Part shown: positions 2,431-60,165 of the stretch, in pieces
How positions within the stretch are numbered: the stretch's first letter is position 1
How the letters are laid out: every line of letters starts with the position of its first letter
Made by a program: the position numbers and the translations under genes
Source of the DNA: Chelativorans salis
GTDB taxonomy: Bacteria; Pseudomonadota; Alphaproteobacteria; Rhizobiales; Rhizobiaceae
Reading direction: 5' to 3'
Assembly: GCF_025336525.1 (NCBI RefSeq)
Contig: NZ_JAOCZP010000003.1
Coordinates: 372,001 to 436,000 of the forward strand
Length of the DNA stretch: 64,000 bases
The notes under the pieces: model-generated
Database searches by the model: none
Told to the model about the DNA's origin: nothing
What the model saw: the letters and a program-made list of their open reading frames with translations, nothing else

Positions 2431-4011
2431 TCACACGCCCCCAAAAGGATTGAAATCATCGACACCGGCAGTCGCCGGCTGACGCCGCCAGTCACCGTTG
2501 CCGCCTCCAGACACGTCCTGAATGCCCTGGCGACCCGTCATCCTCCGATGCGAGCCTTCGGTATCGAGAATGTCGTAGTCACCGTCCGCGACCGACTGAT
2601 GATGCGTGGCGTGCCATGAAGGCGTAGCGCTCCCGGACATTGCCAGGACCAGCGCACCCATCGCGCTATTGGCCAGATCGTCCGCGCCGCCACGTTGATG
2701 ATCGATGGCATCACGCCCGCCACGTGTCACACGCCGCTCAAGCTGCGAAACCTGGGCTACAAGGCGGGTATCATCCAGCAATATGCATGTCCCAGCCATC
2801 AACAGTGGCAAGGCGTCCAGGTAGATTTCACTGCGTGAACGCTCAGACGGGCTGTAGCGAATGCCACGCTGTGTGAAGGCTTCCTGGACCCATTGGCCGC
2901 CAAAGCGATCCCCGGTGACCGTCCCGACCCCGTAAGCCTTCAGGAGCCGCGAGAACTCGTCACAGACGTCAGCAGGCGCAAACGGTGGCTTCACCTCCCT
3001 GGTGCAGTCCAGTACCACCCGCTCGCCTTCTCGGTGGCCGATAGCCAACGTCATCGAGTCGTGTGCGCCGCCAGAAGGGTCGCAGAAGCCAAGGTAGCGG
3101 TAACGCCGGTCAAACGGACGTTCGTGCACCCCCGCCTCGACACAGCGCTCAACAACAGCACGCTCCACGAAGGTGGACAGATCAGACCGAAATTCAGCGT
3201 CCCATTCACTCGCAGCAGCTTCGGGATCGTCATCCTTGGCCCGTGCGATCACCTGGGCGTCAATCGTCGGATTAAACACCACAGTTGGCGCTTTCAGAAC
3301 CAGGACGCCACTGTCCCCCTTGCCGAATGAGCTGGTGAACTTCTGGTGCAATAGGCCGCGTTGTGCGTAGGGCGAGCTAATACCCACCAGCATGCCCTGC
3401 GTCGTCGCCAGGGAGGGCAGGACCGCGCGATACGTCTCGATATCGGGCATGGTGGACGCCTCGTCGCGCCAGAAGGCGGCCTCATCGAAGATGCAGGCAA
3501 CCAGCGTGCGACCGCGAACGGATCGGTAGTTGTTGCTGTGGACGGAAATGCTGATGTTGCCCTTGAGGCGGATTTCTTCCGCGCCGACGCTCTCGACCAT
3601 CTGCTTCAGGATCGGTGAGGCATCGAAGAACCCTTCGACGTACTGGAACACCGCCTGTGCCTGCATCTTGCTGGCCGCGAGAACCAGGACGTGCCCGCGC
3701 TCGCCACGGCTCAGCTTGTCGCTGTAATCCACGAAGGCAGCGAGATAGGAGGCGATCAGCGCAGCCATGCGAGACTTGCCCGAACGGCGCCCGAGAATGG
3801 CCCATAATTCACGGACACGAGAGCCGGGAACATCGCGCCCGCCAGCGATATCCTTGAACGTGGCAAGCTCACCGGCATCGAGTGTCACGCCAAACGCAGC
3901 CTTGAGCGCAACCCGCCACGTGGCCCACGGTGCGACATCGCCCAGCGCGGCCCCGAGCAGGTGCGGATCGGCAAGCGCTTCGTCTATCGTCGTGGAAGCA
4001 AGCCCCGTCAC
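2431..4011 (-). CDS. Phage terminase large subunit
   Basis: The DNA-packaging motor: an ATPase that drives DNA into the prohead and a nuclease that cuts the concatemer. At 526 residues it has the usual length. Walker A is GRRSGKS at 74-80 and Walker B is CIFDE at 173-177. Nuclease-domain acidic residues are D301 (FCDPSGG), D358 (TGDRFGG) and D434/D435 (GADDLANSA). The start is GTG at 4011, overlapping the upstream stop as GTGA, with GAGG seven bases before it. All catalytic motifs appear intact. It is followed by several small genes rather than directly by a portal gene, which is unusual. Confidence 0.93.
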   Translation of the reverse strand: MTGLASTTIDEALADPHLLGAALGDVAPWATWRVALKAAFGVTLDAGELATFKDIAGGRDVPGSRVRELWAILGRRSGKSRMAALIASYLAAFVDYSDKLSRGERGHVLVLAASKMQAQAVFQYVEGFFDASPILKQMVESVGAEEIRLKGNISISVHSNNYRSVRGRTLVACIFDEAAFWRDEASTMPDIETYRAVLPSLATTQGMLVGISSPYAQRGLLHQKFTSSFGKGDSGVLVLKAPTVVFNPTIDAQVIARAKDDDPEAAASEWDAEFRSDLSTFVERAVVERCVEAGVHERPFDRRYRYLGFCDPSGGAHDSMTLAIGHREGERVVLDCTREVKPPFAPADVCDEFSRLLKAYGVGTVTGDRFGGQWVQEAFTQRGIRYSPSERSRSEIYLDALPLLMAGTCILLDDTRLVAQVSQLERRVTRGGRDAIDHQRGGADDLANSAMGALVLAMSGSATPSWHATHHQSVADGDYDILDTEGSHRRMTGRQGIQDVSGGGNGDWRRQPATAGVDDFNPFGGV

Positions 4012-7058: not shown

Positions 7059-7522
7059 TCTCCGTAGGTCTCCTTATAACGACCGACCAGGCGCCTGATC
7101 TTGCTTTCGGGTGTTCCGGCCCCGGCAGCGCCTGAACCGTCACCCACGATTTGTTTTGCGGCAGCGGTTGGGGATGGAAGATGTGAGTTGGAAATTAGGT
7201 CGCGCATCTGGCCAACGATCTCAGCGTCTGCCGCTTCGAGACTACGTCCTGCCGGACGATGTGGCTTTGTCGGCTTCTCGTCTGGTTCGCCCGACAATTC
7301 GCTGATCCAGCGATTTAGGTCGGGAACACTGACAGACCGACCATCTGTCGCATGTATCCCACGGTAAAAGTTCAAGCCGCCTGGGACAGTAAGCAACGTC
7401 CCATCGCACTTAACTTGGCCGCGCTCTATAGCATCGGCAAGCAGTGCCTCAGCATTGGTAAGCTTAGTGCGCATTGCTACGCGCGCGACGGCTTCGTGAA
7501 AGCCAATCCAGTCGGCCATCAT
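7055..7522 (-). CDS. Phage-element protein of unknown function (155 aa)
   Basis: The start ATGATG overlaps the integrase TGA, so it is translated from the integrase message. The first half (residues 1 to about 75) is a compact fold with a helix-rich N-terminus and an LTVPGG turn. A Pro/Lys-rich linker follows, then a second helical part ending in a basic segment (ESKIRRLVGRYKETYGE). The layout suggests two small domains, but none is recognised. Genes between integrase and excisionase often modulate recombination, which is inference only. Confidence 0.6.
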   Translation of the reverse strand: MMADWIGFHEAVARVAMRTKLTNAEALLADAIERGQVKCDGTLLTVPGGLNFYRGIHATDGRSVSVPDLNRWISELSGEPDEKPTKPHRPAGRSLEAADAEIVGQMRDLISNSHLPSPTAAAKQIVGDGSGAAGAGTPESKIRRLVGRYKETYGE

Positions 7523-8811
7523 ACTCTACCCTCAAGCTGCGCCACATTGGTTTCCGGCACCGTCCCAAACCGTGGAGCCCCGGCGCGGATTGCATCGGCC
7601 ACATAGGAGGGCGACAGGTGGCCGTAATGCTTCTCCACCATGCGCGTGTCCGAATGGCCTAGATTCTTGGCCACCACCATGAGCGGCACGCCGTTCATCA
7701 CTGCATGGCTCGCCCATGTGTGCCTGAGGCCATGGAAGCCAATTGGTGGGGTGATTTTGGCATTCTTGCACGCCTCGGTCATTGGGCGCGTCTGATGCGA
7801 TTTCAGCCATTGGCCTCCCGAGGGTGTGGCCAATATCAAAGCCCCGTGCTGCTTGCCGGCAACGAGCTGTGCGAACAGTTCCTTGCCTTCGTCCGTCAGC
7901 ACGACATGACGAGCCTTGCCGGACTTGCTTTCTCGGATTGTGAGTGTTCCGACATCGGCATTGAAGTCCTCGACGCGGAGCCGTGCAAGCTCACTGTAGC
8001 GGGCGCCTGTCTGCAACGCAGCCTGGATGAGATGGCGGAACGCGCCGCTGGAAGCGTTCACAAGCCGCTGCGCTTCGGCAATGGTGAGATAGCGCACGCG
8101 GGCTGTTTCAACGTCCTCGTAGGGCTCGACGCGGCGCCATTCCTTATCTGACGCGACCTTCCCCTCTCTCCAGGCATAATTGAGCGCAGCCTTTAGAACG
8201 GTTAGGACGCGGTTCGCACTGGCGCGGCGGCGGCGAACTGCTTCCGCGTCGTCTGCCGGTTCCCGGAACTTCTGTTCAGCGCCCTTTTTGGTGCGCAGTC
8301 TGGGCGCCGTCTCTGCAATTTTCCGCTGCCAGTGGCGAATATCCTTCGCGGTCAGCTTGGCGATATCCTTGTCGCCTAGATCGGGCAGGATCAGCGCTTC
8401 CGCCCGGTAGCGGGCATCCTGAGCCGATTTCCGGTTGCCCTCCATCCAATGGAGATAGTCTTCAATCGCTTCCTTAACAGTATGGACGCCGGCAACCTTG
8501 CCGCCTTCCCCTGAAAGCTGCTTGTGAAGCCCCCGCGCCTTCTCCTGCGCCTGCCAGAAATCGAGGATGGTCTTGCCGTTGGCGTCCAGCTTGTCGTCAG
8601 CGTCGGCAATGGTCTCGACGCGGTAGCAGTCTTTCCCTCCGTCCTGCTTGCCAAGATAGAGACGGACCACCCACCGGCCACCGGCCTTGCCCTTCCGGTA
8701 GCCGACATGAAGGCCGGGGCCTATTGCTTTGTAATAGGGCTTGCCTCGCGCCTTCAGTTTTTCCCTAGCCGCTCGGCTTTCAAGATTGGAATCCCTTACC
8801 CGCTTCGCCAT
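7519..8811 (-). CDS. Tyrosine-family site-specific integrase
   Basis: Catalyses integration and excision of the element at the tRNA-Glu site. Counting from ATG 8811 (430 residues), the catalytic set is complete: R271 (TGARYSEL), a Lys near 296-299, H360 and R363 (HGLRHTW), H386 (LGHSD) and nucleophile Y396 (EKHYGHL). An N-terminal arm-type DNA-binding domain (about 25-85) and a core-binding SAM-like domain (about 105-215) precede the catalytic domain. AGAGGA about 10 bases before ATG 8811 supports that start over an open frame reaching 8883. It lies at the element's right end, close to the tRNA remnant, and probably recognises the repeats at 8826-8871. Confidence 0.95.
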   Translation of the reverse strand: MAKRVRDSNLESRAAREKLKARGKPYYKAIGPGLHVGYRKGKAGGRWVVRLYLGKQDGGKDCYRVETIADADDKLDANGKTILDFWQAQEKARGLHKQLSGEGGKVAGVHTVKEAIEDYLHWMEGNRKSAQDARYRAEALILPDLGDKDIAKLTAKDIRHWQRKIAETAPRLRTKKGAEQKFREPADDAEAVRRRRASANRVLTVLKAALNYAWREGKVASDKEWRRVEPYEDVETARVRYLTIAEAQRLVNASSGAFRHLIQAALQTGARYSELARLRVEDFNADVGTLTIRESKSGKARHVVLTDEGKELFAQLVAGKQHGALILATPSGGQWLKSHQTRPMTEACKNAKITPPIGFHGLRHTWASHAVMNGVPLMVVAKNLGHSDTRMVEKHYGHLSPSYVADAIRAGAPRFGTVPETNVAQLEGRV

Positions 8812-8825
8812 GACTTTGCGTCCTC

Positions 8826-8871
8826 TGTCCAACACTTTGTCCAATATACCAGTCTGGACGATATTGGACAA
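8826..8871. promoter_or_regulatory. Repeated TGTCCAA sites and perfect inverted repeat upstream of the integrase
   Basis: TTGTCCAATAT (8837-8847) is perfectly inverted as ATATTGGACAA (8861-8871) with a 13-bp spacer, and another direct TGTCCAA lies at 8826-8832, 12 bp from the next. They fall between the integrase start and the attachment site. They are candidate arm-type integrase or excisionase binding sites, or an operator for the integrase promoter. Confidence 0.6.
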
Positions 8872-8951
8872 GCATAAACGCAACAGGGCAGAAAGCCAAG
8901 GTTTTCAGGAGATACAATGTTCTCGCGTGGACGAGAGTGGAGGCGTTTGAA

Positions 8952-12561: not shown

Positions 12562-13317
12562 ATGGGGGAAGACGAACAGGGTCTCTTCGGCGAGGGTGCA
12601 TTTCAGCCCGCGGGAAAAGAGCCGAAGGCGGTCAAGGCCAGCCAGAAAAAGCACTATGAAGGCCATCGCGAGCGCTTGCGTCAGCGCTTTGCCGAAGCCG
12701 GCAGCGACGCGCTGTCGGATTACGAGCTTCTGGAGATGATGCTGTTCCGCTCGGTGCCGCGTGCCGACACCAAGGTGCCGGCCAAGGCGCTTCTCGAGCG
12801 GTTCGGCTCGATCGGCGAGGTTTTGGGCGCGCCCGAGCACCGGTTGAAGGAAGTCACCGGCATCGGCGATGCAGCGGCGCGCGACCTGAAGCTGGTCGCC
12901 GCCCTCACCCAGCGCATGCTTCGCGCCGAGGTGCGCGGCAGGGAGGTTCTGTCCTCCTGGTCGCAGGTGCTCGACTATTGCCGCGCGGCCATGGCCTACG
13001 AGGCCCGCGAGGAGTTCCGCATCCTCTTCCTCGACAAGAAGAATCTGCTGATCCGCGACGAGCGGCAGCAGACAGGCACGGTCGACCACACGCCAGTCTA
13101 TCCGCGCGAGGTGGTGCGCCGGGCGCTGGAACTTTCCGCCAGCGCCATCATTCTCGTGCACAACCACCCCTCCGGCGACCCAACGCCCTCGCGCGCCGAC
13201 ATAGAGATGACACGGATGATCATCGCCACGGCCGAGCCGATGGGGATCACCGTTCATGACCACATAATCATCGGCAAGGAAGGGCATGCCAGTATGAAGG
13301 GGCTGCAGTTGATTTGA
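12562..13317 (+). CDS. radC: RadC/JAMM-domain protein
   Basis: A RadC-family protein of 251 residues with an N-terminal helix-hairpin-helix part (about 75-110, [10 protein letters not shown] and VTGIGDAAA) and a C-terminal JAMM metalloprotease-like domain. The zinc-site pattern is intact: H200, H202 and D213 in [16 protein letters not shown], with an upstream Glu (EFRILFLD). The original link to recombinational repair is now doubted and the substrate is unknown. It lies 37 bp after map, in the same direction, probably in one transcript. Confidence 0.92.
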
Positions 13318-13390
13318 GTGAATAGTGGATGCCCTCTCACGATGATGCATTCCGCCGCTGCTCTACTGACTACTCACTATTCACTATTCA

Positions 13391-16243
13391 CTATTCAGCC
13401 GCAACCACCAAATTCGCCTCAAGAATCCCCCTGATCTCTGCCCGGCAGGAGCCGCAGTTGGTGCCGGCTTGTAAGGTTTCGCCGATGGCCGCCACGCTGG
13501 TGCAGCCGCCGCGGGCGGCGGCGGCGATCTGGTTAGCGCCGACGCCGAAGCAGGAGCAGACGATGGCGCCGGGGTCCGGCCGGTCGGCCCCTGCCCTGCC
13601 GGCGATGACGCGGTAGCGGGAGCGTGGATCGGGATGCGGCTCGCCGAGCTGCTCGACGGCGAAGCCGCGCGAGGCGGCGACGGGGGCTCTTGAGAGATAG
13701 AGGGCGCCGAGGAGCCTGTCGCCATCGAATGCGGCCATACGGTGACTGCCCTGGCGGGCATCGTGATAGGCGATGATTTCCACGCCGTGCGGGGCCAGGA
13801 TCAGGAGCCGGCGCAGGAGGTTTTCAGGCGTCTCCAACGGCTTGCCGTGGGCAAGCTCGAGGCGCCAGCCGTCGGTGCAGCGTGCCAATGCCCAGTAGTC
13901 GAGCCCGTCCATGACGGGCCGCGAGGCGGAGACGGCAAAGCCGTAGTACTCGGCCTCGAAGCGGGTGAGGCGGACGGCGACGTTCTTGGAGGCGGGCTGG
14001 CCCGAATGAGGGTCGGTAATGGGGGGCACCAGCGCATCGACGCGGCCCCTGGCGGAGAACTGGTCGGTCCAGTGCATGGGCACGAAGACGGAGCCCTGGC
14101 GCTGCCTTGGTGAGACGAGAGCGCGCACGAGGACCGCGCCATGGCTGCTTTCCACCCGCACCAGCTCCGCTTCGCCAATGCCGAAGCGTGCGGCATCGGC
14201 TGGATGAAGCTCGGCATAGGGCTCGGCCATGTGGCCGGAAAGGCGCGGGCTTTTGGCCGTGCGGGTCATGGTGTGCCAGTGGTCGCGCACGCGGCCGGTG
14301 TTGAGAGTGAAGGGGAAGGCGGCGTCCGTCACGGCGCGGGGGCGCGGCGCCACGGGCAGGAAGCGGGCGCGGCGGTCGGGGGTGTAGAAGTTGCCGGCGG
14401 CGAAGAAGCGAATACTGTTCCCCTCCACCCTCCGAAGCTCTGGTCGGGGCATGCCTGTCTCTCGTCCGTCGTCATCCCGGCCAAGGGAGCTTTGCTCCCG
14501 CGAGCCGGGGCCCGTTCCGTGACTCCTCCACGTTTCGGAATGGGTCCCCGACAGCCTCCGCTTCGCTGCGGCTTCCGGGATGACAGCTGGGGGGTGGACC
14601 CGCGCGTCCCCTGCTGGTGCCGGCCACTGGAATGACGGCAGGGCCGCGTACTCGGGCGCCGTGATGCCGGCATAGGCGCCGATGTCGAAATCTCGCGCGC
14701 CGTTGTTCTCATGGGCCGACAGCCCGGCATGCTCGCGGAAGACCTCGACGGGACTCGAATAGGCGAAGGCTTGCGCGAAACCCATCCGCTTCGCCACTTC
14801 GACGATCTGCCACCAATCCGGCCGCGCCTCGCCGGGCGCCGGCAGAAAGGCGCGCTGGCGGGAGATGCGGCGCTCGGAATTCGTCACCGTGCCGTCTTTC
14901 TCGCCCCAGCCGGTCGACGGCAGCTTCACATGGGCGTGGCGGAGTGTGTCGGTCTCGGACGCTATGTCGGAGACGACGACGAAGGGGCAGGTTTTCAGCG
15001 CCGCTTCCACGGCGTCGGCGTCGGGCAGCGAGTCGGCGGGATTGGTGGCCATGATCCACAGCGCCTTGATGCGCCCGTCGGCAACGGCCTCAAACATGTC
15101 CACGGCCTTGAGCCCAGGCTTTTCCGCCATGCGCGGGGCGCGCCAGAAGTGCTGCACAAGATTGCGGTGCAAGCCGTTCTCCAGGTCCATGTGGGCGGCC
15201 AGCATGTTGGCGAGCCCGCCGACCTCGCGCCCGCCCATGGCGTTGGGCTGACCGGTGACGGAGAACGGGCCCATGCCGGGACGGCCGATGCGGCCGGTCG
15301 CCAGATGGCAGTTGAGGATCGCATTCACCTTGTCGGTGCCGGCGGCGGACTGGTTGACGCCTTGGCTGTAGACGGTGACAGTGCGCTCGTGTTCGGCGAA
15401 AAGCTGGTAAAAAGTCTCGATCTCGGCTGGTTGCAGCCCTGTGGAAGCGGCCACCTCGTCGACCGTCAGCTGCCCGGCTGCCGCCAATGCCTGGTTGAAG
15501 CCGGTTGTGTGCTTTTCGATGTAACCTTCTTGAAGAACTTCCTTTTCCGCGAGGTAGCGCAGCAGGCCGGCGAAGAGTGCCACGTCGCCGTCCGGCGCGA
15601 TTGCCAGATGCAGGTCGGCGATGTCGGCGGTCATGGTACGGCGCGGGTCGACGAGCACCACCTTCATCTCGGGGCGCTTTTCCTTGGCGGCGGCGAGCCG
15701 CTGGTAGAGCACGGGATGGCACCAGGCGAGATTGGAGCCGGTGAGGACCACGAGGTCGGCAAGCTCCAGGTCCTCGTAGGTTCCCGGCACCGTGTCGGAG
15801 CCGAAGGCGCGGCGGTGGCCGGCGACGGACGAGGCCATGCACAGGCGGGAGTTGGTGTCGATGTTGGCCGAGCCGATGAAGCCTTTCATCAGCTTGTTGG
15901 CGACGTAATAGTCCTCCGTGAGAAGCTGGCCCGAGACATAGAAGGCGACGGAATCGGGGCCGTGCTCGGCGACCGCCGCCGCAAAATTTTGCGCCACCAG
16001 ATCGAGCACCTCGTCCCAGCCGGCGCGGCGGCCGCCGATCTCCGGGTAAAGCAGCCGCTCCTCGAGGCCGACGGTTTCGGCAAGGGCGGAGCCTTTCGAG
16101 CAGAGCCGACCGAAATTGGCCGGGTGCTCGGGGTCACCCTTGATCGATACCGAGCCGTCGGGCTCCAGAGCCGCCAGGACGCCGCAGCCGACCCCGCAAT
16201 ACGGACAGGTTGTTTTCGTGGGGAGGCTGGCCGTCTGCGTCAT
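13391..16243 (-). CDS. nasA: Assimilatory nitrate reductase, molybdopterin subunit with C-terminal BFD-like domain
   Basis: Reduces nitrate to nitrite for nitrogen assimilation. 950 residues. The N-terminal [4Fe-4S] cysteines are C13, C16, C20 and C48; the molybdopterin-binding body follows (SNLAWCHPV, GQPNAMGGREVGG) with the dinucleotide-binding C-terminal domain (FTLNTGRVRDHWHTMTRT). A BFD-like [2Fe-2S] domain closes the protein (C896, C898, C930, C933). Residues of about 553-592 are encoded by a palindromic intergenic-type repeat (14471-14584) inserted in frame, so the protein is longer than usual and carries a Ser/Arg-rich insert. Last gene of the leftward nas operon. Confidence 0.93.
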   Translation of the reverse strand: MTQTASLPTKTTCPYCGVGCGVLAALEPDGSVSIKGDPEHPANFGRLCSKGSALAETVGLEERLLYPEIGGRRAGWDEVLDLVAQNFAAAVAEHGPDSVAFYVSGQLLTEDYYVANKLMKGFIGSANIDTNSRLCMASSVAGHRRAFGSDTVPGTYEDLELADLVVLTGSNLAWCHPVLYQRLAAAKEKRPEMKVVLVDPRRTMTADIADLHLAIAPDGDVALFAGLLRYLAEKEVLQEGYIEKHTTGFNQALAAAGQLTVDEVAASTGLQPAEIETFYQLFAEHERTVTVYSQGVNQSAAGTDKVNAILNCHLATGRIGRPGMGPFSVTGQPNAMGGREVGGLANMLAAHMDLENGLHRNLVQHFWRAPRMAEKPGLKAVDMFEAVADGRIKALWIMATNPADSLPDADAVEAALKTCPFVVVSDIASETDTLRHAHVKLPSTGWGEKDGTVTNSERRISRQRAFLPAPGEARPDWWQIVEVAKRMGFAQAFAYSSPVEVFREHAGLSAHENNGARDFDIGAYAGITAPEYAALPSFQWPAPAGDARVHPPAVIPEAAAKRRLSGTHSETWRSHGTGPGSREQSSLGRDDDGRETGMPRPELRRVEGNSIRFFAAGNFYTPDRRARFLPVAPRPRAVTDAAFPFTLNTGRVRDHWHTMTRTAKSPRLSGHMAEPYAELHPADAARFGIGEAELVRVESSHGAVLVRALVSPRQRQGSVFVPMHWTDQFSARGRVDALVPPITDPHSGQPASKNVAVRLTRFEAEYYGFAVSASRPVMDGLDYWALARCTDGWRLELAHGKPLETPENLLRRLLILAPHGVEIIAYHDARQGSHRMAAFDGDRLLGALYLSRAPVAASRGFAVEQLGEPHPDPRSRYRVIAGRAGADRPDPGAIVCSCFGVGANQIAAAARGGCTSVAAIGETLQAGTNCGSCRAEIRGILEANLVVAAE
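14471..14584. repeat. Palindromic repeat element inserted in frame in nasA
   Basis: A 114-bp element bounded by GTCATCCCGG and its exact inverse CCGGGATGAC, with internal hairpins (GGGAGC-TTT-GCTCCC) and a GGAATGGGTCC block. The same termini and a closely matching right half occur between genes at 23680-23784. 114 is divisible by three and the element has no stop in the nasA frame, so reading continues through it. Confidence 0.85.
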
Positions 16244-16252
16244 CGCGCCGTC

Positions 16253-17098
16253 CTATTCGGCCGGGACGCGGGCGGGGGCGGCCATGTCGCCCGGCTCGCG
16301 CTTCGGGCCGGTGCGGTGGTGGGTGGAATAGAGCGTGAGGCCGACAAAGGTCAGGCCGCCCACTAGGTTGCCGACCACGGTGGGGATCTCGTTCCATAGG
16401 AGGTAGTCCATGATCGAGAAGTTGCCGCCAAGCATCAGGCCCGAGGGGAACAGGAACATGTTTACGATCGAGTGCTCGAAGCCCATGTAGAAGAACAGCA
16501 TGATGGGCATCCACATGCCGATGACCTTGCCCGAAACGGAGGTCGACATCATCGCCGCCACGACGCCCGTCGAGACCATCCAGTTGCAAAGCACGCCGCG
16601 GATGAAGAGGGTAAGCATTCCGGCAGCGCCATAGGCGGCATAGCCCACCGTGCGGCCCTCGCCGATGGTGCCGATCTTCTGGCCGACCGCGTTCGGCGCC
16701 TCACTGAAGCCGTAGGTGAAGGTGATCGCCATCATCAGCGCTACGAGCAGGGCACCGGCGAAATTGCCGACAAAGACAAGCCACCAGTTGCGCATAACCC
16801 CGGCCCATGTGACGCCCGGCCGCTTGTCGATGAGAGCCAGCGGCACGAGCGTGAAGACGCCGGTCAGAAGATCGAAGCCCATCAGATAAAGCAGGCAGAA
16901 GCCCACGGGGAAGAGTATGGCGCCGGCCAGCGGCTCTCCGGTCTGCACCGTGATGGTGACGGCGAAGGCGGCAGCGAGCGCCAGTATGGCACCGGCCATG
17001 AAGGCGCGGATCAGGGTGTCGCGCGTCGACATGAACACCTTCGCCTCGCCGGCGTCGATCATCTTGGTCACGAATTCATTGGGTACAACATAGGCCAT
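16253..17098 (-). CDS. Formate/nitrite transporter family channel (NirC-like)
   Basis: A pentameric-type FNT channel of 281 residues with six predicted membrane segments. Family signatures are the LAAAFAVTI helix, the GFDLLTGVF loop helix, NWWLVFVGNFAGAL, GVLCNWMVSTGV and the FYMGFEHSIVNMFL stretch. Placed between nirD and nasA, it most likely moves nitrite (in or out) during nitrate assimilation. Formate transport is less likely in this context. It ends 10 bp before nasA and belongs to the same operon. Confidence 0.88.
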   Translation of the reverse strand: MAYVVPNEFVTKMIDAGEAKVFMSTRDTLIRAFMAGAILALAAAFAVTITVQTGEPLAGAILFPVGFCLLYLMGFDLLTGVFTLVPLALIDKRPGVTWAGVMRNWWLVFVGNFAGALLVALMMAITFTYGFSEAPNAVGQKIGTIGEGRTVGYAAYGAAGMLTLFIRGVLCNWMVSTGVVAAMMSTSVSGKVIGMWMPIMLFFYMGFEHSIVNMFLFPSGLMLGGNFSIMDYLLWNEIPTVVGNLVGGLTFVGLTLYSTHHRTGPKREPGDMAAPARVPAE

Positions 17099-17144: not shown

Positions 17145-17480
17145 CTACTCCGCCGCCACGGCCAGCATTATCGAGGCGTCCATGAGAATGCGCTCGCCCT
17201 CGCGCTTGAGCGCAAAGGTGCGCACAGCGCCTTCGTCGGCGCCCTGGGCATCCCCGGTCTCCAGCGAAAAGACCCAGTTGTGCAGCGGACAGGTGACCTG
17301 CGCCCCGTGCACGATGCCCTGGCTCAGGGGGCCGCCCCTGTGTGGGCAGCGGTCCTCGATGGCGTAGACCTCGTCGGTGGCGGTGCGGAAGACGGCGATC
17401 CGTCCGATGGGGGTGTTGACGCAGCGCGCACCGCGCTGCGGGATGTCATCGAGCTTGCCGACCTCGATCCAGTCGCTCAT
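17145..17480 (-). CDS. nirD: Nitrite reductase (NADH) small subunit
   Basis: A Rieske-type [2Fe-2S] protein of 111 residues that partners NirB in cytoplasmic nitrite reduction. Cluster ligands are in CPHRGGPLSQG (about 44-54) and CPLHNW (about 64-69), with the Cys-X-His spacing of the family. It lies 4 bp after nirB in the same orientation, as in most nir operons. Nothing unusual is seen. Confidence 0.93.
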   Translation of the reverse strand: MSDWIEVGKLDDIPQRGARCVNTPIGRIAVFRTATDEVYAIEDRCPHRGGPLSQGIVHGAQVTCPLHNWVFSLETGDAQGADEGAVRTFALKREGERILMDASIMLAVAAE

Positions 17481-17484
17481 CGTT

Positions 17485-19932
17485 TCACTCCGCTGCCTGG
17501 GGGAAGCCCAGTTCGGCCATGGGTTTGAACTCGTGCTTGTCCTTGCCCGAGACGCGCTCGGACCAGGGATCCACCTGGGCGAATTTCTGGGAGAAGACGA
17601 AGCGGTCGAAAAAGGCCTTGCGCTTGCCAGTGTCTTCCATGATCTGGCGGCGGATCTCTTCGATGCCGACGCGCTTGGCCCATTTGTAGATGCGTTCCAG
17701 ATAGCGTGCCTGCTCGCGGTACATCTGGACGAGCGCCACGATCACCTCCAGCGCTTCGTCTTCCGTCTTCACCAGGCCCAGCACCTCGGTGCCCTTGATG
17801 TCGAGGCCGGCGGCACCGGCGAAATGAATCTCGAAGCCTGAATCGACACAGACGACGCCGACATCCTTGCAGGTGGCCTCGGCGCAGTTCCTCGGACAGC
17901 CGGAGACGGCCATCTTCACCTTGGCCGGCGTCCAGGAGCCCCACATGAACTTTTCGATGCGGATGCCGAGGCCGGTGGAATCCTGCGTGCCGAAGCGGCA
18001 CCAGTCGGAGCCGACGCAGGTTTTCACGGTTCTGAGGCCCTTGGCATAGGCATGGCCCGAGACGAAGCCGGCCTTGCTGAGATCGGCCCAGACGGCGGGC
18101 AGGTCCTCTTTTTGGATGCCCAGCATGTCGATACGCTGGCCGCCGGTGACCTTGACGGTCGGAATATTGAACTTGTCGACCACATCGGCGATGGCACGTA
18201 GCTCCTTGGAGCTGGTCACGCCGCCCCACATGCGCGGGACCACCGAGTACGTACCATCCTTCTGGATGTTGGCGTGCACGCGCTCGTTGACGAAGCGCGA
18301 CTGGTAGTCGTCGGCATATTCGTCCGGCCAGTCGGCCACGAGATAATAGTTGAGCGCGGGGCGGCACTTGGCGCAGCCGCAGGAAGTCTTCCATTCCAGC
18401 TCCTGCATGACGGCGGGGATGGTCTTCAGCCCCTTCGCCTTGATGAGGCGGCGCACGTCGTCATGGCCAAGGTCGGTGCAGCCGCACATGGGCTGCACCG
18501 CGGCCGGATTGTAGGTGTCACCCAGGGTGAGCCGCATCAGCTGCTCGACGAGCCCGGTGCAGGTGCCGCAGGAATTGGAGGCCTTGGTATGGGCGCGCAC
18601 GGCGTCGAGCGTCGTCAGGCCCTTTTCGGTGATCGTGCCGACGATCTTTCCCTTGCATACGCCGTTGCAGCCGCAGATCTCCGTATCATCCGGCAAGGCT
18701 GCAACGGCCGCCATAGGGTCCAGCTGACCCCCTCCCTGATAGGCTTGGCCGAAAATGAGGGTGTCACGCATCTCGGCGACGTCAGTGCCCTTCTTGAGCA
18801 TGTTGAAAAACCAGGAGCCGTCGGCCGTCTCTCCATAGAGCACAGCGCCGAGAATACGGTTTTCCTTCAGCACCAGGCGCTTGTAGATGCCGGCCGAGCC
18901 ATCGCGCAGGACGATCTCCTCGCGGTCGTCGCCCTCGGCGAAATCGCCCGCGGAATAGAGGTTTACGCCGGTCACTTTAAGCTGGGTGGCGGTCTCCACG
19001 GGACGGAAGGCGGCGTCCTCTTTGACGAGTGTCTTCGCCGCCACCTTGGCCATGTCGTAGAGCGGGGCGACGAGGCCGTAGCAGATGCTTTCATGCTCGA
19101 CGCACTCGCCGACGGCCAGGATGTCGGGATCGGAGGAGACCATCTGGTCGTTGACGACGATGCCGCGCTCCACATAAAGGCCGGCGTCGACGGCGATGCG
19201 GGTCTCCGGCCGGATGCCGACAGCCATGACGACGATATCGGCGGGATAGATCGTGCCGTCTTCCAGAACCACGGCCTCGGCCCTCTCCTCGCCGAGGACG
19301 GCCTTGGTCTGCGCCTTGCAGTGGATCTTTATCCCCCTGCCCTCCAGCTCCTTCTGCAGAAGATAACCTGCGGCCGGGTCGAGCTGGCGCTCCATCAGGT
19401 GGCCCATCAGGTGCAGCACCACCACCTCCATGCCGCGCAAGCGCAAGGCGGCAGCCGCCTCGAGGCCCAAAAGGCCGCCGCCGATGACGACCGCCTTGGC
19501 ATTCGGCTTCCCGGCCGCCGCCGCCATGGCATCGACGTCGTCGAGGTCGCGGAAGGCCATGACGCCGGGCAGGTCCTTGCCGGCGATGGGGATGATGAAG
19601 GGTGCGGAGCCGGTGGCGATTACCAGCTTATCGTAAGGTGTCTCGCGCTCGCCGGAGAAAACCACCTTGGCCTTGCGGTCGATCCTGGTAACGGTCTCGC
19701 CGAAGCGGCAGTTCACACCGTTTTCGGCATACCAATTCGCGTCGTGGGTGACGATCTCGTCATAGGTCTTTTCGCCGGCCAGCACTGGCGAGAGCATGAT
19801 GCGGTTGTAGTTGCCGCGCGGCTCGGCACCGAAGAGGGTTACGTCGAAGGCGTCCGGATTGGCCTCGAACAGGTGCTCGAGCATGCGCCCGGAGGCCATT
19901 CCGGCACCGACGACGACGAGTTTCTCAGTCAT
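17485..19932 (-). CDS. nirB: Nitrite reductase (NADH) large subunit
   Basis: Reduces nitrite to ammonium with NADH. 815 residues. Order of parts: FAD-binding domain (VVVGAGMASGR at the N-terminus), NAD-binding domain (VVIGGGLLGLEAA), a BFD-like [2Fe-2S] domain (CGCNGVCKG ... NSCGTCTG) with a second Cys set (PMCGCTDLGH ... CGCAKC), and the sulfite/nitrite reductase haem domain with siroheme-[4Fe-4S] ligands in TCVGSDWCRFGTQ and SGCPRNCAEA. ATG at 19932 is chosen because the sequence starts directly with the FAD motif; the open frame continues upstream into narK-overlapping sequence. Confidence 0.95.
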   Translation of the reverse strand: MTEKLVVVGAGMASGRMLEHLFEANPDAFDVTLFGAEPRGNYNRIMLSPVLAGEKTYDEIVTHDANWYAENGVNCRFGETVTRIDRKAKVVFSGERETPYDKLVIATGSAPFIIPIAGKDLPGVMAFRDLDDVDAMAAAAGKPNAKAVVIGGGLLGLEAAAALRLRGMEVVVLHLMGHLMERQLDPAAGYLLQKELEGRGIKIHCKAQTKAVLGEERAEAVVLEDGTIYPADIVVMAVGIRPETRIAVDAGLYVERGIVVNDQMVSSDPDILAVGECVEHESICYGLVAPLYDMAKVAAKTLVKEDAAFRPVETATQLKVTGVNLYSAGDFAEGDDREEIVLRDGSAGIYKRLVLKENRILGAVLYGETADGSWFFNMLKKGTDVAEMRDTLIFGQAYQGGGQLDPMAAVAALPDDTEICGCNGVCKGKIVGTITEKGLTTLDAVRAHTKASNSCGTCTGLVEQLMRLTLGDTYNPAAVQPMCGCTDLGHDDVRRLIKAKGLKTIPAVMQELEWKTSCGCAKCRPALNYYLVADWPDEYADDYQSRFVNERVHANIQKDGTYSVVPRMWGGVTSSKELRAIADVVDKFNIPTVKVTGGQRIDMLGIQKEDLPAVWADLSKAGFVSGHAYAKGLRTVKTCVGSDWCRFGTQDSTGLGIRIEKFMWGSWTPAKVKMAVSGCPRNCAEATCKDVGVVCVDSGFEIHFAGAAGLDIKGTEVLGLVKTEDEALEVIVALVQMYREQARYLERIYKWAKRVGIEEIRRQIMEDTGKRKAFFDRFVFSQKFAQVDPWSERVSGKDKHEFKPMAELGFPQAAE

Positions 19933-19960
19933 GGATATCCTTTCCCTTTCGCGGGCGGTT

Positions 19961-21238
19961 TCAAGCCGGCTGCATCTCGGTGCGCCGCTCCATCCGGCGC
20001 ACGGCGAAATGCATCCAGGCGAGCGAGAAGGCGACGAGGACGAAGAGCGCCATGAAGCAGCTCGTCCACAGGCCGGTAAGGTCGTTGAGGTAGCCGAAGA
20101 GCAGCGGCAGGACGAAGCCGCCAAGCCCGCCGATCATGCCCACGAGACCGCCCACCGCGCCGACGTTCTGCGGGTAGTAGACGGGGATGTGCTTGTAGAC
20201 GGCGGCCTTGCCGAGGCTCATGAAGAAGCCAAGCACGAAGATGAGGACGACGAAGGCCCAGGGGCCGACTTCGAAGTGGAAGGTCTTGGGGCCGTCGATG
20301 CCCTGCACCATGTAGTCGGCCGCCGGTATCGACAGAAGAGCTGTGCAGACGGCGGAGACGGCGAAGGTCCAGTACATGACTGTGCGCGCGCCCGCCTTAT
20401 CCGACAGCGCGCCGCCATAGGCGCGGAAGACAGAGGCGGGGATGGAATAGGCCGCACCGATCATGCCGGCGGTGGCGATGTCGAAGCCGTAAACGCCGAT
20501 CAGATAGCGCGGCAGCCACAGGGCCAGCGCAACGAAGGCCCCGAAGACGAAGAAGTAGTAGAGCGCGAAACGCCAGACCTGCAGGTTCTTCAGCGGCTCG
20601 AACTCGGACGCGAAGCTGCGCCGGCGGAGCTGGCCGGCGCGCTGGGCGCGGATCACCGGATCGTCTCCTGTGGTGAACCAGAAGACCACCGCCATGACGA
20701 CCAGCACCAGGGCCCACACCTGGGCGACGGCCGCCCAGCCCCAGGCGATCAGCAAGAAGGGGGCGAGGAACTTGGTCACCGCGGCGCCCACGTTGCCGAC
20801 GCCGAAGATGCCGAGCGCGGTGCCCTGTTTCTCAGCCGGATAGAAGCGCGAGACATAGGCGACGCCGACGGCGAAGGAACCGCCGGCGATGCCGACCCCG
20901 AGGGCCGCGATAAGCATCTGAGTATAGGTATGGGCGAAGGAGAGCAGGAAGGTGGCGATCGCCGCCGCCAGCATGGTGGCGGTGTAGACGAGGCGGCCGC
21001 CGTAGCGGTCGGTCCAGATGCCGAGCAACATGCGAACGAGCGAGCCGGTGAGGATCGGCGTGCCGACGAGCAGGCCGAACTGGGTCTCGGAAAGCCCCAG
21101 ATCATCCTTGATGCGCACGCCGATGATGGAAAATATCGTCCACACGGCGAAGCAGACCGTGAATGCGACGGTGGACATTGTGAGCGCGCGCGTGGGCGTG
21201 GTGTCTTGCGTTTGTGCGGCTGGCGTTGATGCGGTCAT
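19961..21238 (-). CDS. MFS nitrate/nitrite transporter (NarK/NasA type)
   Basis: A 425-residue, 12-helix major facilitator of the nitrate/nitrite porter group, bringing nitrate into the cell. The nitrate-signature-like glycine-rich segments are GIAGGSFAVGVAYVSRFYP and GGLVGMIGGLGGFVLPLLFG, with the charged loop DRYGGR. ATG at 21238 is preferred over a TTG at 21250. It is the first gene of narK-nirB-nirD-focA-nasA and is preceded by an attenuator-like hairpin (21286-21359), fitting antitermination by NasT. Named narK or nasK in different genomes. Confidence 0.92.
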   Translation of the reverse strand: MTASTPAAQTQDTTPTRALTMSTVAFTVCFAVWTIFSIIGVRIKDDLGLSETQFGLLVGTPILTGSLVRMLLGIWTDRYGGRLVYTATMLAAAIATFLLSFAHTYTQMLIAALGVGIAGGSFAVGVAYVSRFYPAEKQGTALGIFGVGNVGAAVTKFLAPFLLIAWGWAAVAQVWALVLVVMAVVFWFTTGDDPVIRAQRAGQLRRRSFASEFEPLKNLQVWRFALYYFFVFGAFVALALWLPRYLIGVYGFDIATAGMIGAAYSIPASVFRAYGGALSDKAGARTVMYWTFAVSAVCTALLSIPAADYMVQGIDGPKTFHFEVGPWAFVVLIFVLGFFMSLGKAAVYKHIPVYYPQNVGAVGGLVGMIGGLGGFVLPLLFGYLNDLTGLWTSCFMALFVLVAFSLAWMHFAVRRMERRTEMQPA

Positions 21239-21285
21239 CGGCTGTTCCAATCCAACTGCTCGTGCCTCGTGCGAGGTTTTCGTTG

Positions 21286-21359: not shown

Positions 21360-21778
21360 GCCTCAGCGCCCTTCATTGGACGCTTGTTTTTGGTGTCCCC
21401 TCTGGACCCGCTTTTAGCTATGCACGGGGCGTGCCAACTTCAGTTTCGAGAGTGGATTCGTTTGTTTTCAATGGGTTACTTAAAAGAGAATTTGCACCCC
21501 TTCACCGGCGCTGCTGATTCTGGTGACTAATGCTGCAGCGCAGCGATCAAACTTTAGGCATGCCCGCAATGTGCCTGCGAATTAGGCAGTGAATTTCTAG
21601 GGTCGTTCCGGAATGGATCCTCGGGTCAAGCCCGAGGATGACGAAGGTGGAGGCGTTGCCGCTCGTCTCGACGTTGGAGAATCATGCAGATATTTCACTT
21701 CGTCATCCTCGGGCTTGACCCGGGGATCTATGCCAGAACATCGACGCTACGCCGGCGGTCACCAGCTAGGCCGCTCGA
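21360..21778. other. Upstream control region of the nitrate operon and downstream flank of nasS
   Basis: No gene is seen in this stretch. Its left part should carry the promoter of the leftward nitrate operon, but no consensus elements can be assigned with confidence. Its right part holds a pair of inverted repeat units (21615-21735). Confidence 0.5.
21615..21735. repeat. Two inverted copies of a hairpin repeat unit
   Basis: ATCCTCGGG-TCAAG-CCCGAGGAT (21617-21639) and ATCCTCGGG-CTTGA-CCCGGGGAT (21705-21727) are copies of one unit in opposite orientation, each extended by a shared GACGAAG flank. Together they could fold into a long stem. They lie between nasS and the nitrate operon and resemble the short dispersed palindromic units common between rhizobial genes. 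Confidence 0.75.
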
Positions 21779-23019: not shown

Positions 23020-23610
23020 TCACTCGTCGAGCAGCCCGGAGGCCAGGATCAGGCTCTGGGCGATTTCCGAAATCTTGCGGTTCTGGTTCATCGCCGTGCG
23101 GCGGAGCAGCGTGTAGGCCTCCTCCTCGGAAATTCCCTTTGAGCGCATGAGGATGCCCTTGGCCCGGTCGACGAGTTTGCGGCCTTCAAGCGCGCTCTTC
23201 GCCTCTTCCAGTTCGCGCGCAAGGCGCGAATAGGCGTTGAAGCGGCTGATCGCCATGTCGACGATCGGCTTGACGCGCTCCTGCCTCAGCCCATCGACCA
23301 CATAGGCCGAAACGCCGGCATCCACCGCCGCCTCGATGGCGCTCTGGTCGGACTGGTCGACGAACATGGCGATCGGCCGCCTGACAGCGCGCGACAGGTT
23401 GAACATCGCCTCCAGCATGTCGCGGTTGGGGTTTTCCAGATCGATGACGATGACATCGGGCTGGATCTCGGCGATACGCTGGGCGATGCCGTTGACGTCG
23501 TGCACGACGGTGACCTGTTCGTGGCCGGCCTCGCGCAGCCCCGCCTCGATGATGGCGGCGCGCACGGTATTTTCGTCGATGACCAGGACGGAGAGCGAAC
23601 GAGACGGCAT
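23020..23610 (-). CDS. nasT: ANTAR-domain antiterminator NasT
   Basis: A 196-residue response-regulator-like protein: a receiver-type domain (about 5-120, with DENTVRAAIIE and VIVIDLENPNRD) and a C-terminal ANTAR RNA-binding domain (about 130-190, KLVDRAKGILMRSKGISEEEAY then LRRTAMNQNRKISEIAQ). It promotes read-through of leader terminators of nitrate assimilation genes when NasS is loaded with nitrate. ATG at 23610 is chosen since residues upstream of it look non-coding and contain repeat-like sequence. Confidence 0.94.
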   Translation of the reverse strand: MPSRSLSVLVIDENTVRAAIIEAGLREAGHEQVTVVHDVNGIAQRIAEIQPDVIVIDLENPNRDMLEAMFNLSRAVRRPIAMFVDQSDQSAIEAAVDAGVSAYVVDGLRQERVKPIVDMAISRFNAYSRLARELEEAKSALEGRKLVDRAKGILMRSKGISEEEAYTLLRRTAMNQNRKISEIAQSLILASGLLDE

Positions 23611-23679
23611 GCCTCTATTTTGCGCATGCACAATGATTGTGCAATGCAAAAATTTGGGCGCACGCGGTTCCAACGGGTC

Positions 23680-23784
23680 GTCATCCCGGGGAAGTTGAAG
23701 GCTTGCCGGGGACCCATTCCGGAACGTCGACGTCACGGAATGGGTCCCGGACAGTCTCCGGTTCGCTCCGACTTCCGGGATGAC
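23680..23784. repeat. Palindromic repeat element between nasT and the copper ATPase gene
   Basis: A 105-bp element with the same GTCATCCCGG/CCGGGATGAC ends as the copy inside nasA. Inside it, GGACCCATTCCG is inverted as CGGAATGGGTCC around a short central loop. It lies between the nasT start and the end of the copper ATPase gene. It is the intergenic relative of the nasA insertion. Confidence 0.8.
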
Positions 23785-23818: not shown

Positions 23819-26290
23819 CTAAAGCTGGACGCGCCTCAACCTAAGCGCATTGCCGATGACGGAGACCGACGACAGGCTCATGGCCGCCGCGGCGATCATC
23901 GGCGACAGGAGCACGCCGAAGACCGGATAGAGGATACCGGCGGCGATGGGCACGCCGGCGGCGTTGTAGACGAAGGCGAAGAAGAGGTTCTGCTTGATGT
24001 TGCGGATCGTCGCGCGGGCGAGCTTACGCGCCCTGACGATGCCCGTCAGATCTCCCTTCACCAGCGTGATGCCGGCGCTTTCCATGGCCACGTCGGCGCC
24101 GGTGCCCATGGCGATGCCGACTTCCGCCGCGGCAAGTGCGGGCGCGTCGTTGACGCCGTCGCCGGCCATGGCCACCTTGGCGCCACGTGCATGGAACTCG
24201 TCGACCAGCGCCTTCTTGTCCTCCGGCAGGACCTCGGCGCGCACGTCGTCGATACCGAGTTTTTCGGCCACGGCGCGGGCGGTGCGTTCGTTGTCGCCGG
24301 TCGCCATGATGATGGTGAGGCCCAGATCGTGGAGGGCGCGGATGGCGCCGGCCGTCGTTTCCTTGATGGGATCGGCGACGGCGACGATGCCGGCCGCCTT
24401 GCCGTCGATGGCGACGAACATGGCCGTTTTGCCTTCGGCCTGCAGGCTCTCGGCCTGCCCGGCAAGCGGCCCGGAATCGAAGCCGAACGCCTTCATCATG
24501 GCCGCGTTGCCGAGCGCCACGCGCCTGCCAGACACCACGCCCGAGACGCCCTTACCAGTCACGGCCTCGAAGTCGACGGCATTGGAAAGGGTGGCGCCTT
24601 CAGCTTCCGCCCCTTCGACGATGGCCTCGGCAAGCGGATGCTCCGAGCCGCGCTCCAGGCTTGCGGCCAGCGACAGAAGCTCGGCGCGCTCGATGCCCTC
24701 GGTCGTCACCACGTCAGTCAGTTTCGGCCGTCCTTCGGTGAGCGTGCCGGTCTTGTCGACGATCAGCGTGTCGACGCGGGCAAAACGCTCCAGCGCCTCG
24801 GCGTCGCGGATCAGGACGCCGCCTTGAGCGCCGCGGCCGGTGGCTGTCATGATCGACATCGGCGTGGCCAGCCCCAACGCACAGGGACAGGCGATGATAA
24901 GCACGGAGACCGCCGAGACGATGGCGAAGATCATGCTCGGCTGCGGTCCGAAGATACCCCAGACGATGAAGGCAAGCACGGCGATCGCCACCACCGTGGG
25001 CACGAACCAGGACGCCACCCAGTCGGCCAGCCCCTGGATCGGTGCGCGCGAACGCTGGGCCGAGGCCACCATCTCGACGATCTTCGCCAGCATGGTCTCG
25101 CTGCCCACCCGCTCGGCGCGCATGACCAGCGTTCCGTTCTTGTTGAGCGTGCCGCCGGTGAGTTGGTCGCCGGCCTCCTTCTCCACCGGCAGGGGCTCGC
25201 CGGAGATCATGGATTCGTCGAGCGAGGAGCGGCCCTCCTCCACCACGCCGTCGACCGGCACGGCGTCGCCCGGCCGCACGCGCAGGAGGTCGCCCACCTG
25301 CACCTCCTCGAGCGGCACGTCCGTCTCCTTGCCGTCGGCGCCGATGCGGCGCGCCGTCTTGGGCGATAGGTCGAGCAGCGCACGAATGGCCGAGCCCGTG
25401 CGCTCGCGCGCCTTCAGTTCCAGCACCTGACCGACGAAGATGAGCGTCACGATCACCACCGCGGCCTCGAAATAGACCGGGACGGTGCCTCCATGGGTTC
25501 GGAAAGAGGCGGGGAATATCTCCGGGAAAAGCGTGGCAACGACGCTGTAGCCATAGGCCGCGCCGACGCCGATGGCGATCAGCGTCCACATGTTGGGACT
25601 GCGGTTGACGATCGACTGCCAGCCGCGGTGGAAGAAGGGCGCGGCCGCCCACAACACCACCGGCGTCGCCAGCAGGAGTTCGAGCCAGCCCGCCAACGGC
25701 TCGCCGAGCCAATGCCGCACGGGCAAGCCCACCATCGGCCCCATAGCGAGCACCACCAGCGGTATCGCCAGGATGGCGCTAACCCAGAGGCGGCGGGTGA
25801 AGTCGATCAATTCCGGATTGGGGCCTTCCTTGCCCGTGGGCACGCCCATCGGCTCCAGCGCCATGCCGCAGATGGGGCAGCTTCCCGGTTCGTCGGTAAC
25901 GATTTCCGGGTGCATCGGGCAGGTGTACTTTGTGCCCTTCGGCATCGGCTCGGGCTTCGGCTTATCCCCCAGATAGCGCTCGGGGTCGGCGGTGAATTTC
26001 TCCGCGCAGCCGGCGGAACAGAAATAGTAACCCTCGCCGTCGTGGCGGTGGAAATGGCGCGCCGTTGCGCGCTCCACGTTCATGCCGCACACCGGGTCCT
26101 TTGCCGTCAGAAAAGCCTCCGGGTCGGCGGCAAAGCGCTTGCGGCAGGATTCGCTGCAGAAATGATAGGTGTGTCCGGCATGCTTCAAGCTGGGCTTGTC
26201 TTTTGACGGATCGACGGTCATACCGCAAACCGGGTCGCGGACGACCTCCGCCTGATCGGCAAGGGACGTGTGGTGTGCTTTCTGTTCCAT
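23819..26290 (-). CDS. copA: Copper-type P1B ATPase with N-terminal YHS and metal-binding domains
   Basis: Pumps Cu(+) (or a related soft metal) out of the cytoplasm. 823 residues. The N-terminus has two YHS domains ([10 protein letters not shown] ... [10 protein letters not shown] and [10 protein letters not shown] ... [10 protein letters not shown]) and then a heavy-metal-binding segment (YTCPMHPEI ... [10 protein letters not shown]) instead of GMxCxxC domains. The ATPase core has the metal-passage CPC motif (IIACPCALG), phosphorylation site DKTGTLT, HP motif (SEHPLAEA) and [13 protein letters not shown] at 26290 has GGAGA about 7 bases ahead. Copper specificity is inferred from CPC and the family. 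Confidence 0.92.
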
Positions 26291-26357
26291 TCGGCTCTCC
26301 GGAATCATATCGAGCCGTCCAGATAGGGCTTCCAGTTACTGGAAGGTCAAGACGTAT

Positions 26358-60005: not shown

Positions 60006-60165
60006 ATCACAAAATAAGAGGGCGGAAGCTTAATCCGCTTCTCATCACGCGGTCAAAGTCTTGGGAGGATACGGTCCTGGCGCGGGCAATCGCAGCCGCC
60101 GTTTAACGAAACGGAAACGGATCGGACGCGTTTAGTTGCAAGGCCTGGTGCCTTGCATTTTTTTT
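60006..60165 (+). ncRNA. Candidate trans-acting small RNA
   Basis: Between proS and the DUF1467 gene, a promoter-like pair (59972-60000) is followed by about 130 nt with a hairpin (GCGGA-AGCTTAA-TCCGC, near 60023-60039), an unpaired A/C-rich stretch, and a perfect intrinsic terminator (60137-60165) ending in eight T. No coding frame fits. Rhizobiales carry conserved alpha-r small RNAs; I recall one (alpha-r9) lying beside proS in Sinorhizobium but cannot confirm it here. The identity of the family is therefore tentative, while a transcript is well supported. Confidence 0.65.
60137..60165 (+). terminator. Intrinsic terminator of the candidate small RNA
   Basis: TGCAAGGC (60137-60144) pairs with GCCTTGCA (60150-60157) around CTGGT, followed directly by eight T residues (60158-60165). 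This is a textbook rho-independent terminator on the plus strand. Confidence 0.88.

Follow-up and report, generated by a model that had tools for sequence, protein, structure and literature searches.

We suggest that element A, a 114-bp REP-like palindrome dispersed in the genome of Chelativorans salis, entered the nitrate reductase gene nasA in frame, within a flexible linker, and is probably carried there as a neutral passenger. This reading, which we hold to be likely, extends to related species, where the same tolerant linker holds several repeat families. Element A would have inserted into the linker between the molybdopterin and MGD-binding domains, and would presumably be transcribed and translated as 38 residues predicted to be disordered. 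Insertions that shift the frame or fall in folded parts would be purged, whereas in-frame ones might be tolerated by the NasA linker. Such tolerance could explain how the linker of relatives came to hold, nest, swap and sometimes lose several repeat families. We infer neutrality in the window species, continued activity of the enzyme and the mechanism of repeat movement. The window is the whole 64,000-nucleotide stretch of DNA analysed; labels in G and L are our own for genomes and loci, G000 being the window genome.

Element A in nasA and across the genome

The gene nasA (13391..16243, minus strand) encodes an assimilatory-type nitrate reductase of 950 amino acids, in which the Fe4S4, molybdopterin, MGD-binding and BFD [2Fe-2S] domains all score above their Pfam cut-offs. 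None of the NCBIfam equivalog models reaches its cut-off (two stretches match the assimilatory NasC model, at 430.9 bits against 1100), so we named the gene from its domains, homologues and neighbours. The neighbours, all on the minus strand, are a formate/nitrite transporter family gene adjoining nasA (16253..17098, below the curated cut-off), nirD for the nitrite reductase small subunit (17145..17480, above cut-off), nirB for the large subunit (17485..20124, above cut-off) and a NarK-type nitrate/nitrite transporter gene (19961..21250, below the curated cut-off). The nirB match opens at residue 69, thus the true start is probably inside the open reading frame. At the other end of nasA, inverted and direct repeats of the ATTCACTATTCACT type lie at 13317-13397, between the ends of nasA and of a presumably radC-like gene. 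Elsewhere the window contains a tyrosine recombinase/integrase-like gene (7519-8883, below curated cut-offs) and the alphaproteobacterial sRNA ar9 (60009-60164; Rfam RF02343, 109 bits).

Element A occupies 14471..14584 on the minus strand and exactly fills codons 554-591 of nasA in frame (VIPEAAAKRRLSGTHSETWRSHGTGPGSREQSSLGRDD), within a reading frame of 950 codons and zero stops. Its 10-bp ends are exact inverted repeats: the left end GTCATCCCGG at 14471..14480 reads CGTC, a REP tag, together with the preceding base, and the right end CCGGGATGAC at 14575..14584 is its complement, with the tag TGTC on the other strand. The position, ends and preserved frame of the 114-bp element given in the original prediction are all correct. 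That the insert marks a decaying gene is scarcely credible. An insertion in a conserved enzyme and the missed NCBIfam cut-off might suggest a pseudogene, but the frame is open, all four domains exceed their Pfam cut-offs, codon-position G+C is gene-typical on both sides of element A, and nirB and nirD are adjacent.

The unit had also been proposed to be a dispersed repeat with a near copy at 23680-23784, and both points are borne out. The second window copy (23680..23784) lies at the start of a regulator-like reading frame (23020-23736), before a copper ATPase gene (23819-26308). Aligned with 10 bases of flank per side, the two copies have a mean column identity of 83%, with gaps. A two-ended pattern with a gap of 60-90 bases matches this second copy exactly and nothing else in the real window, and it has 0 matches in 100 shuffles; the nasA copy is missed because its gap (94) exceeds that range. 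Single 10-mer ends with one mismatch allowed are at chance level (12 found, 7.5 expected). A BLAST search with the 114-bp unit gives 28 matches (E<=0.001) in the window genome (5.66 Mb, 19 contigs), many of them partial and two of them from opposite strands of a single place. Among the other copies the best is full length and 93% identical, so the genome does hold the further copies on which the prediction depended. Across the 16 genus genomes searched, the window genome included, matches are present in six: 28 in G000, 46 in G002, 41 in G015, two in G009, one in G007 and one in G014.

Element A has the features of an intragenic in-frame palindromic repeat, being dispersed, lying wholly within a conserved gene, keeping the frame and missing from most homologues. 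An Rfam search of the window returned nothing over element A at gathering score. The relatives compared did not include an empty nasA allele with flanks matching those of G000, and no clear target-site duplication was seen by eye at the flanks of element A. A further stretch of the G000 linker, adjoining element A, had zero other copies in the seven genomes searched.

Repeat families in the NasA linker

The NasA linker, taken from after QWP through RFF inclusive, spans 14402..14620 (minus strand; residues 542-614, 73 aa), with BLAST anchoring and coordinates set by hand. A NasA match is present in 12 of the 16 genus genomes (E<=1e-100) and in 151 of the 297 family genomes (E<=1e-150). Linkers were measured by BLAST anchoring in 212 loci, from 12 genus genomes, 120 family genomes outside the genus and 80 named loci, and dropping eight duplicates left 204 distinct NasA. 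The commonest linker is 13 aa; 176 linkers have at most 17 aa, 14 have 18-29 aa and 14 have 47-124 aa. The family genomes outside the genus are the best 120 of 146 listed with coordinates and were taken by score, which a long linker can raise, so the share of filled linkers may be somewhat high. All 14 long linkers belong to the window's family or to Mesorhizobium. With 13 aa as the commonest length, homologues without the repeat lack the inserted segment, and it is not the case that close relatives all carry the same segment without repeat-like DNA. In a Perlucidibaca MAG (L081, 4001-8073) the NasA match spans 4073 bases against about 2.6 kb in others, as a large insertion or joined matches.

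All 14 long linkers match dispersed repeats. Element A is found in the window genome, B (about 155 bp) in ten (G006, G002, G015, G239, G189, G283, G088, G065, G219 and Mesorhizobium temperatum, L050), D in two (G156 and G179) and F in one (G225). The A insert of G000 and the ten B inserts match intergenic copies, and D and F match at many places of their own genomes. Repeat C is nested inside B in G002 and G015, and in G015 the nasA C copy has some intergenic counterparts at 97-98% identity. In G239 a D-like piece follows B in the linker. A fifteenth NasA, with a linker of 22 aa (G101), has the short hairpin E, of which the 26-bp unit occurs at five genome places including nasA. Genome searches match nasA plus other places in G006, G239, G189, G283, G002 and G015. 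B has 10-98 matches per genome in 17 of 18 genomes searched and four in G009, counting both strands of the palindrome and scoring at most 40 candidates per genome; the L050 genome lies outside these repeat searches. The arms common to C and D are about 22 bases long and match at 95%, and 13-23 bases of B recur in both, so some of the families are related. The peptides they encode at the linker have no mutual resemblance. With other dispersed repeats at the same spot in some relatives, this loop seems to be a site at which repeat DNA is recurrently made into protein.

A strong hairpin in the nasA message could tune translation or mRNA decay, a role at the RNA level that we regard as very unlikely. 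Element A folds with z of -6.0 and -5.4 on its two strands against dinucleotide shuffles, and 12 of the 14 long linkers are at z -7.5 or lower against mononucleotide shuffles. Yet such foldedness comes with any palindromic repeat, and the entire 219-nt G000 linker has a z of only -0.9 against mononucleotide shuffles. The site is also mid-gene, and the linkers of at most 17 aa in most NasA argue further against this role.

A single ancient B insertion, later lost, replaced or overwritten (in the window species also by A), is a reasonable possibility that we lean slightly away from, the alternative being repeated new insertions. The ten B inserts agree in frame and, to within about two codons, in position (4-6 residues into the linker), which would be unlikely from many independent random insertions. 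A stub and remnants exist as well (L058, G011 and, less surely, G272). However, eight nasA copies of B resemble one another (mean identity 0.781 over 28 pairs) no more than intergenic copies from different genomes do (0.777). In a quick tree of 57 NasA with the linker left out and with long-branch warnings, the presence of B requires 9 changes, at least 8 of them forced by starred branches; shuffles have a mean of 9.3, and 245 of 500 are as low. The six linker states together require 15 changes on that tree, which has a supported sister pair with a filled (G189, 63 aa) and an empty linker (G118, 13 aa). Remains of B in the flanks of G000 are not above chance either, with 72 of 300 shuffles as good on the right and 215 of 300 on the left (63 of 300 for G009); the flank test is moreover not specific, since the short-linker relative G012 scored 3 of 300. 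Gene conversion from dispersed copies could reconcile the shared place and frame of B with its patchy distribution.

In the linker of Mesorhizobium xinjiangense (L058) all that remains of B is its two ends, joined into a perfect 24-bp palindrome, ACCCCCCTCTGGCCAGAGGGGGGT. This is consistent with an in-frame collapse, like the footprint of a loss. Together with the remnant in G011, this palindromic stub shows that an insert can become shorter without losing the frame.

Constraint, coding copies and insertion sites

The original prediction placed the insert ahead of the conserved RFFAxGxFYTP segment, probably in a surface loop. A linker ahead of that segment is supported, and the structural model predicts disordered coil there. 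In an AlphaFold2 model of NasA built with 43 sequences (mean pLDDT 84.8), residues 549-607 (14423..14599, minus strand, coordinates set by hand) fall under pLDDT 50 and have no secondary structure. Other stretches under 50 are short (1-4, 333-338 and 340-342).

Amino-acid constraint on the linker is relaxed in the two species pairs compared. Nonsynonymous to synonymous codons are 15:6 in the linker and 51:78 outside it between G002 and G015 (p=0.009), and 26:2 and 136:214 between L050 and G283 (p=1e-8). Both pairs carry B-type inserts, and element A has no second copy at the site. Between the neutral passenger and the new linker offered by the original prediction, the passenger fits better given this excess of amino-acid change, as tested on B inserts in other species and not on element A. 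Longer repeat-derived linkers kept by selection, altering the motion of the C-terminal domains or the electron route to the molybdenum site, are unlikely in our view. The restriction of long linkers (14 of 204 NasA) to the window's family and Mesorhizobium, and inserts without stops, might speak for such a function. Against it are the dissimilar peptides of differing families, the excess change within the linker in the two B-insert pairs, the predicted disorder, and the supported sister without an insert (G118, which is in the tree with a third of its columns).

Coding copies of A and B are rare among the loci tested. A test based on open frame and codon-position G+C was applied to 58 loci, 28 of A (G000) and 30 of B (G006, G000 and G002), a few of the B loci being opposite strands of one place. 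It was passed by nasA in G000 and G006 and by one further gene in G002, and the nasA copy is the only one of the 28 element A matches in the window genome to pass as coding. The original prediction had called for this count within coding frames. Zero passed among the 30 of 77 element A copies in G002 and G015 that were put through the test. The weak short frames L264, L273 and L272 also passed, but were dropped after the translations of L264 and L272 were read, L273 being the other-strand match at the place of L264. Other reading frames spanning element A copies look like antisense shadow frames, judging from ten translations and codon-position G+C. The further gene in G002 (L279, contig G002:C33, element copy 3784-3838), by its sequence presumably uvrB, has a C-terminal tail with two in-frame pieces of B type, SPLEGEMPGRAEGG and SPLAGEMSGRTEGG. 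The uvrB of Rickettsia conorii carries two REPs (main text of PMC3733652).

The idea that the repeats are stop-poor, and hence predisposed to coding, fits B and fails for A. The 26 B copies are stop-poor (mean of 3.12 frames open against 2.52 in shuffles, with 0 of 200 shuffles as open), whereas ten A copies have a mean of 2.4 of 6 frames open against 3.36 in shuffles, with 200 of 200 shuffles at least as open.

A survey of insertions of at least 15 aa covered 90 full-length NasA, of which 12 are from the genus, 70 are named and 8 are family rows, taken at full length since the match spanned the linker. There are 14 rows with an insertion at the linker column, one just after it (G088, already among the 14), one at column 704 and three at the C-terminal end. 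One row at the linker column, L069 (16 aa), lacks a repeat-like insert. With the 8 family rows excluded, 6 of 7 internal insertions are at the linker, including the element A case itself and the non-repeat-like L069. The insertion after core column 704, in a Tepidiphilus MAG (L074), is 27 aa long (IRVRPELVEGQPFDKLGANGFTPLEPG) and presumably resembles a repeat-encoded peptide of beta- and gammaproteobacteria. The linker might be a true hot spot, which palindromic families enter preferentially, through target choice or conversion between dispersed copies, and which turnover continually remakes; we think this rather doubtful. If true, mobile DNA would supply a housekeeping enzyme with disordered peptides about 35-110 residues long.

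Relation to known palindromic repeats

Rickettsia offers the best-known in-frame palindromic repeats, for which its reduced and drifting genomes were a natural excuse. The genomes with filled linkers are larger (about 3.7-7.3 Mb), and the in-frame repeats lie in a metabolic enzyme, with several families at a single linker that relatives show filled, nested, collapsed or empty. This makes the neutral creation of protein sequence by repeats, and the movement of these repeats, directly testable in culturable bacteria.

The REPs of the CGTC superfamily in alphaproteobacteria have a terminal CGTC tag (or TGTC, CCTC), a stem opening with complementary AT and an unpaired CCA tail, and form units of 20-40 bp with loops of 4-5 bases (with exceptions) and predominantly HH-type dimers, as described in the main text of PMC3733652. 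The window copy of element A carries the tags CGTC and TGTC, one per end. Several copies read by eye CGTCATCCCGG, a loop, CCGGGATCCA and then the mirror image (e.g. L002), with the AT step and the CCA tail; the window copy departs from the CCA-tail form and reads CCGGGGCCCG there. Inverted pairing is also common to both, as is a mostly intergenic distribution with occasional in-frame copies within genes. In contrast to the loops of 4-5 bases, those of element A have about 20 bases or more by eye, and element A is an inverted pair with its tags outward. By these sequence features, element A resembles a long-loop relative of CGTC REPs and is not a proven member. Two REP units of the canonical CGTC type, each with a 5-base loop, also occur in the window (21617-21643 and 21701-21727), in opposite orientation with tags inward.

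The comparison with Rickettsia drawn in the original prediction may be closer than was thought, because element A shares its tag, AT step and CCA tail with the superfamily to which the 2013 paper assigned RPE-4 (CGTC-4) and RPE-6 (CGTC-1), although its loops are too long for the definition (PMC3733652, main text). Dispersed palindromes in frame within reading frames are common to element A and to RPE-4, RPE-6 and the longer RPE-1, the link to a named RPE family running through the CGTC classification of PMC3733652. The case differs in that one linker of one gene receives several repeat families across species, and in that 1 of 28 matches in the window genome passes our test as coding, while R. 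conorii has the most intragenic CGTC repeats in the account of PMC3733652. The repeats and MITEs with intragenic copies in Coxiella burnetii and enterobacteria (PMC5896051, PMC2759123) are likewise short non-autonomous repeats able to add peptides to proteins, a likeness of kind.

The view that such elements are unusual here is not supported, as different dispersed repeats occupy this place in frame in related species, and intragenic REPs are published for several species, also outside Rickettsia (PMC3733652, main text). Among the papers listed for the element DNA and peptide strings, the titles were unrelated, and the literature searched has no report of repeat capture by a nitrate reductase linker. 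The nearest relevant paper, PMC3733652, does not mention nitrate reductase or Mesorhizobium in its main text, its gene list being in a supplement. The closest precedent described there is the recB gene of Xanthomonas, where REPs lie at about the same site in X. campestris and X. oryzae. In both cases related species have differing REPs at roughly one site within a single gene, but recB concerns two species, whereas the NasA linker is filled in 14 of 204 NasA, by several families and with nesting. In-frame REPs are thus known already; within the literature searched, what is new is the capture of several repeat families by one linker.
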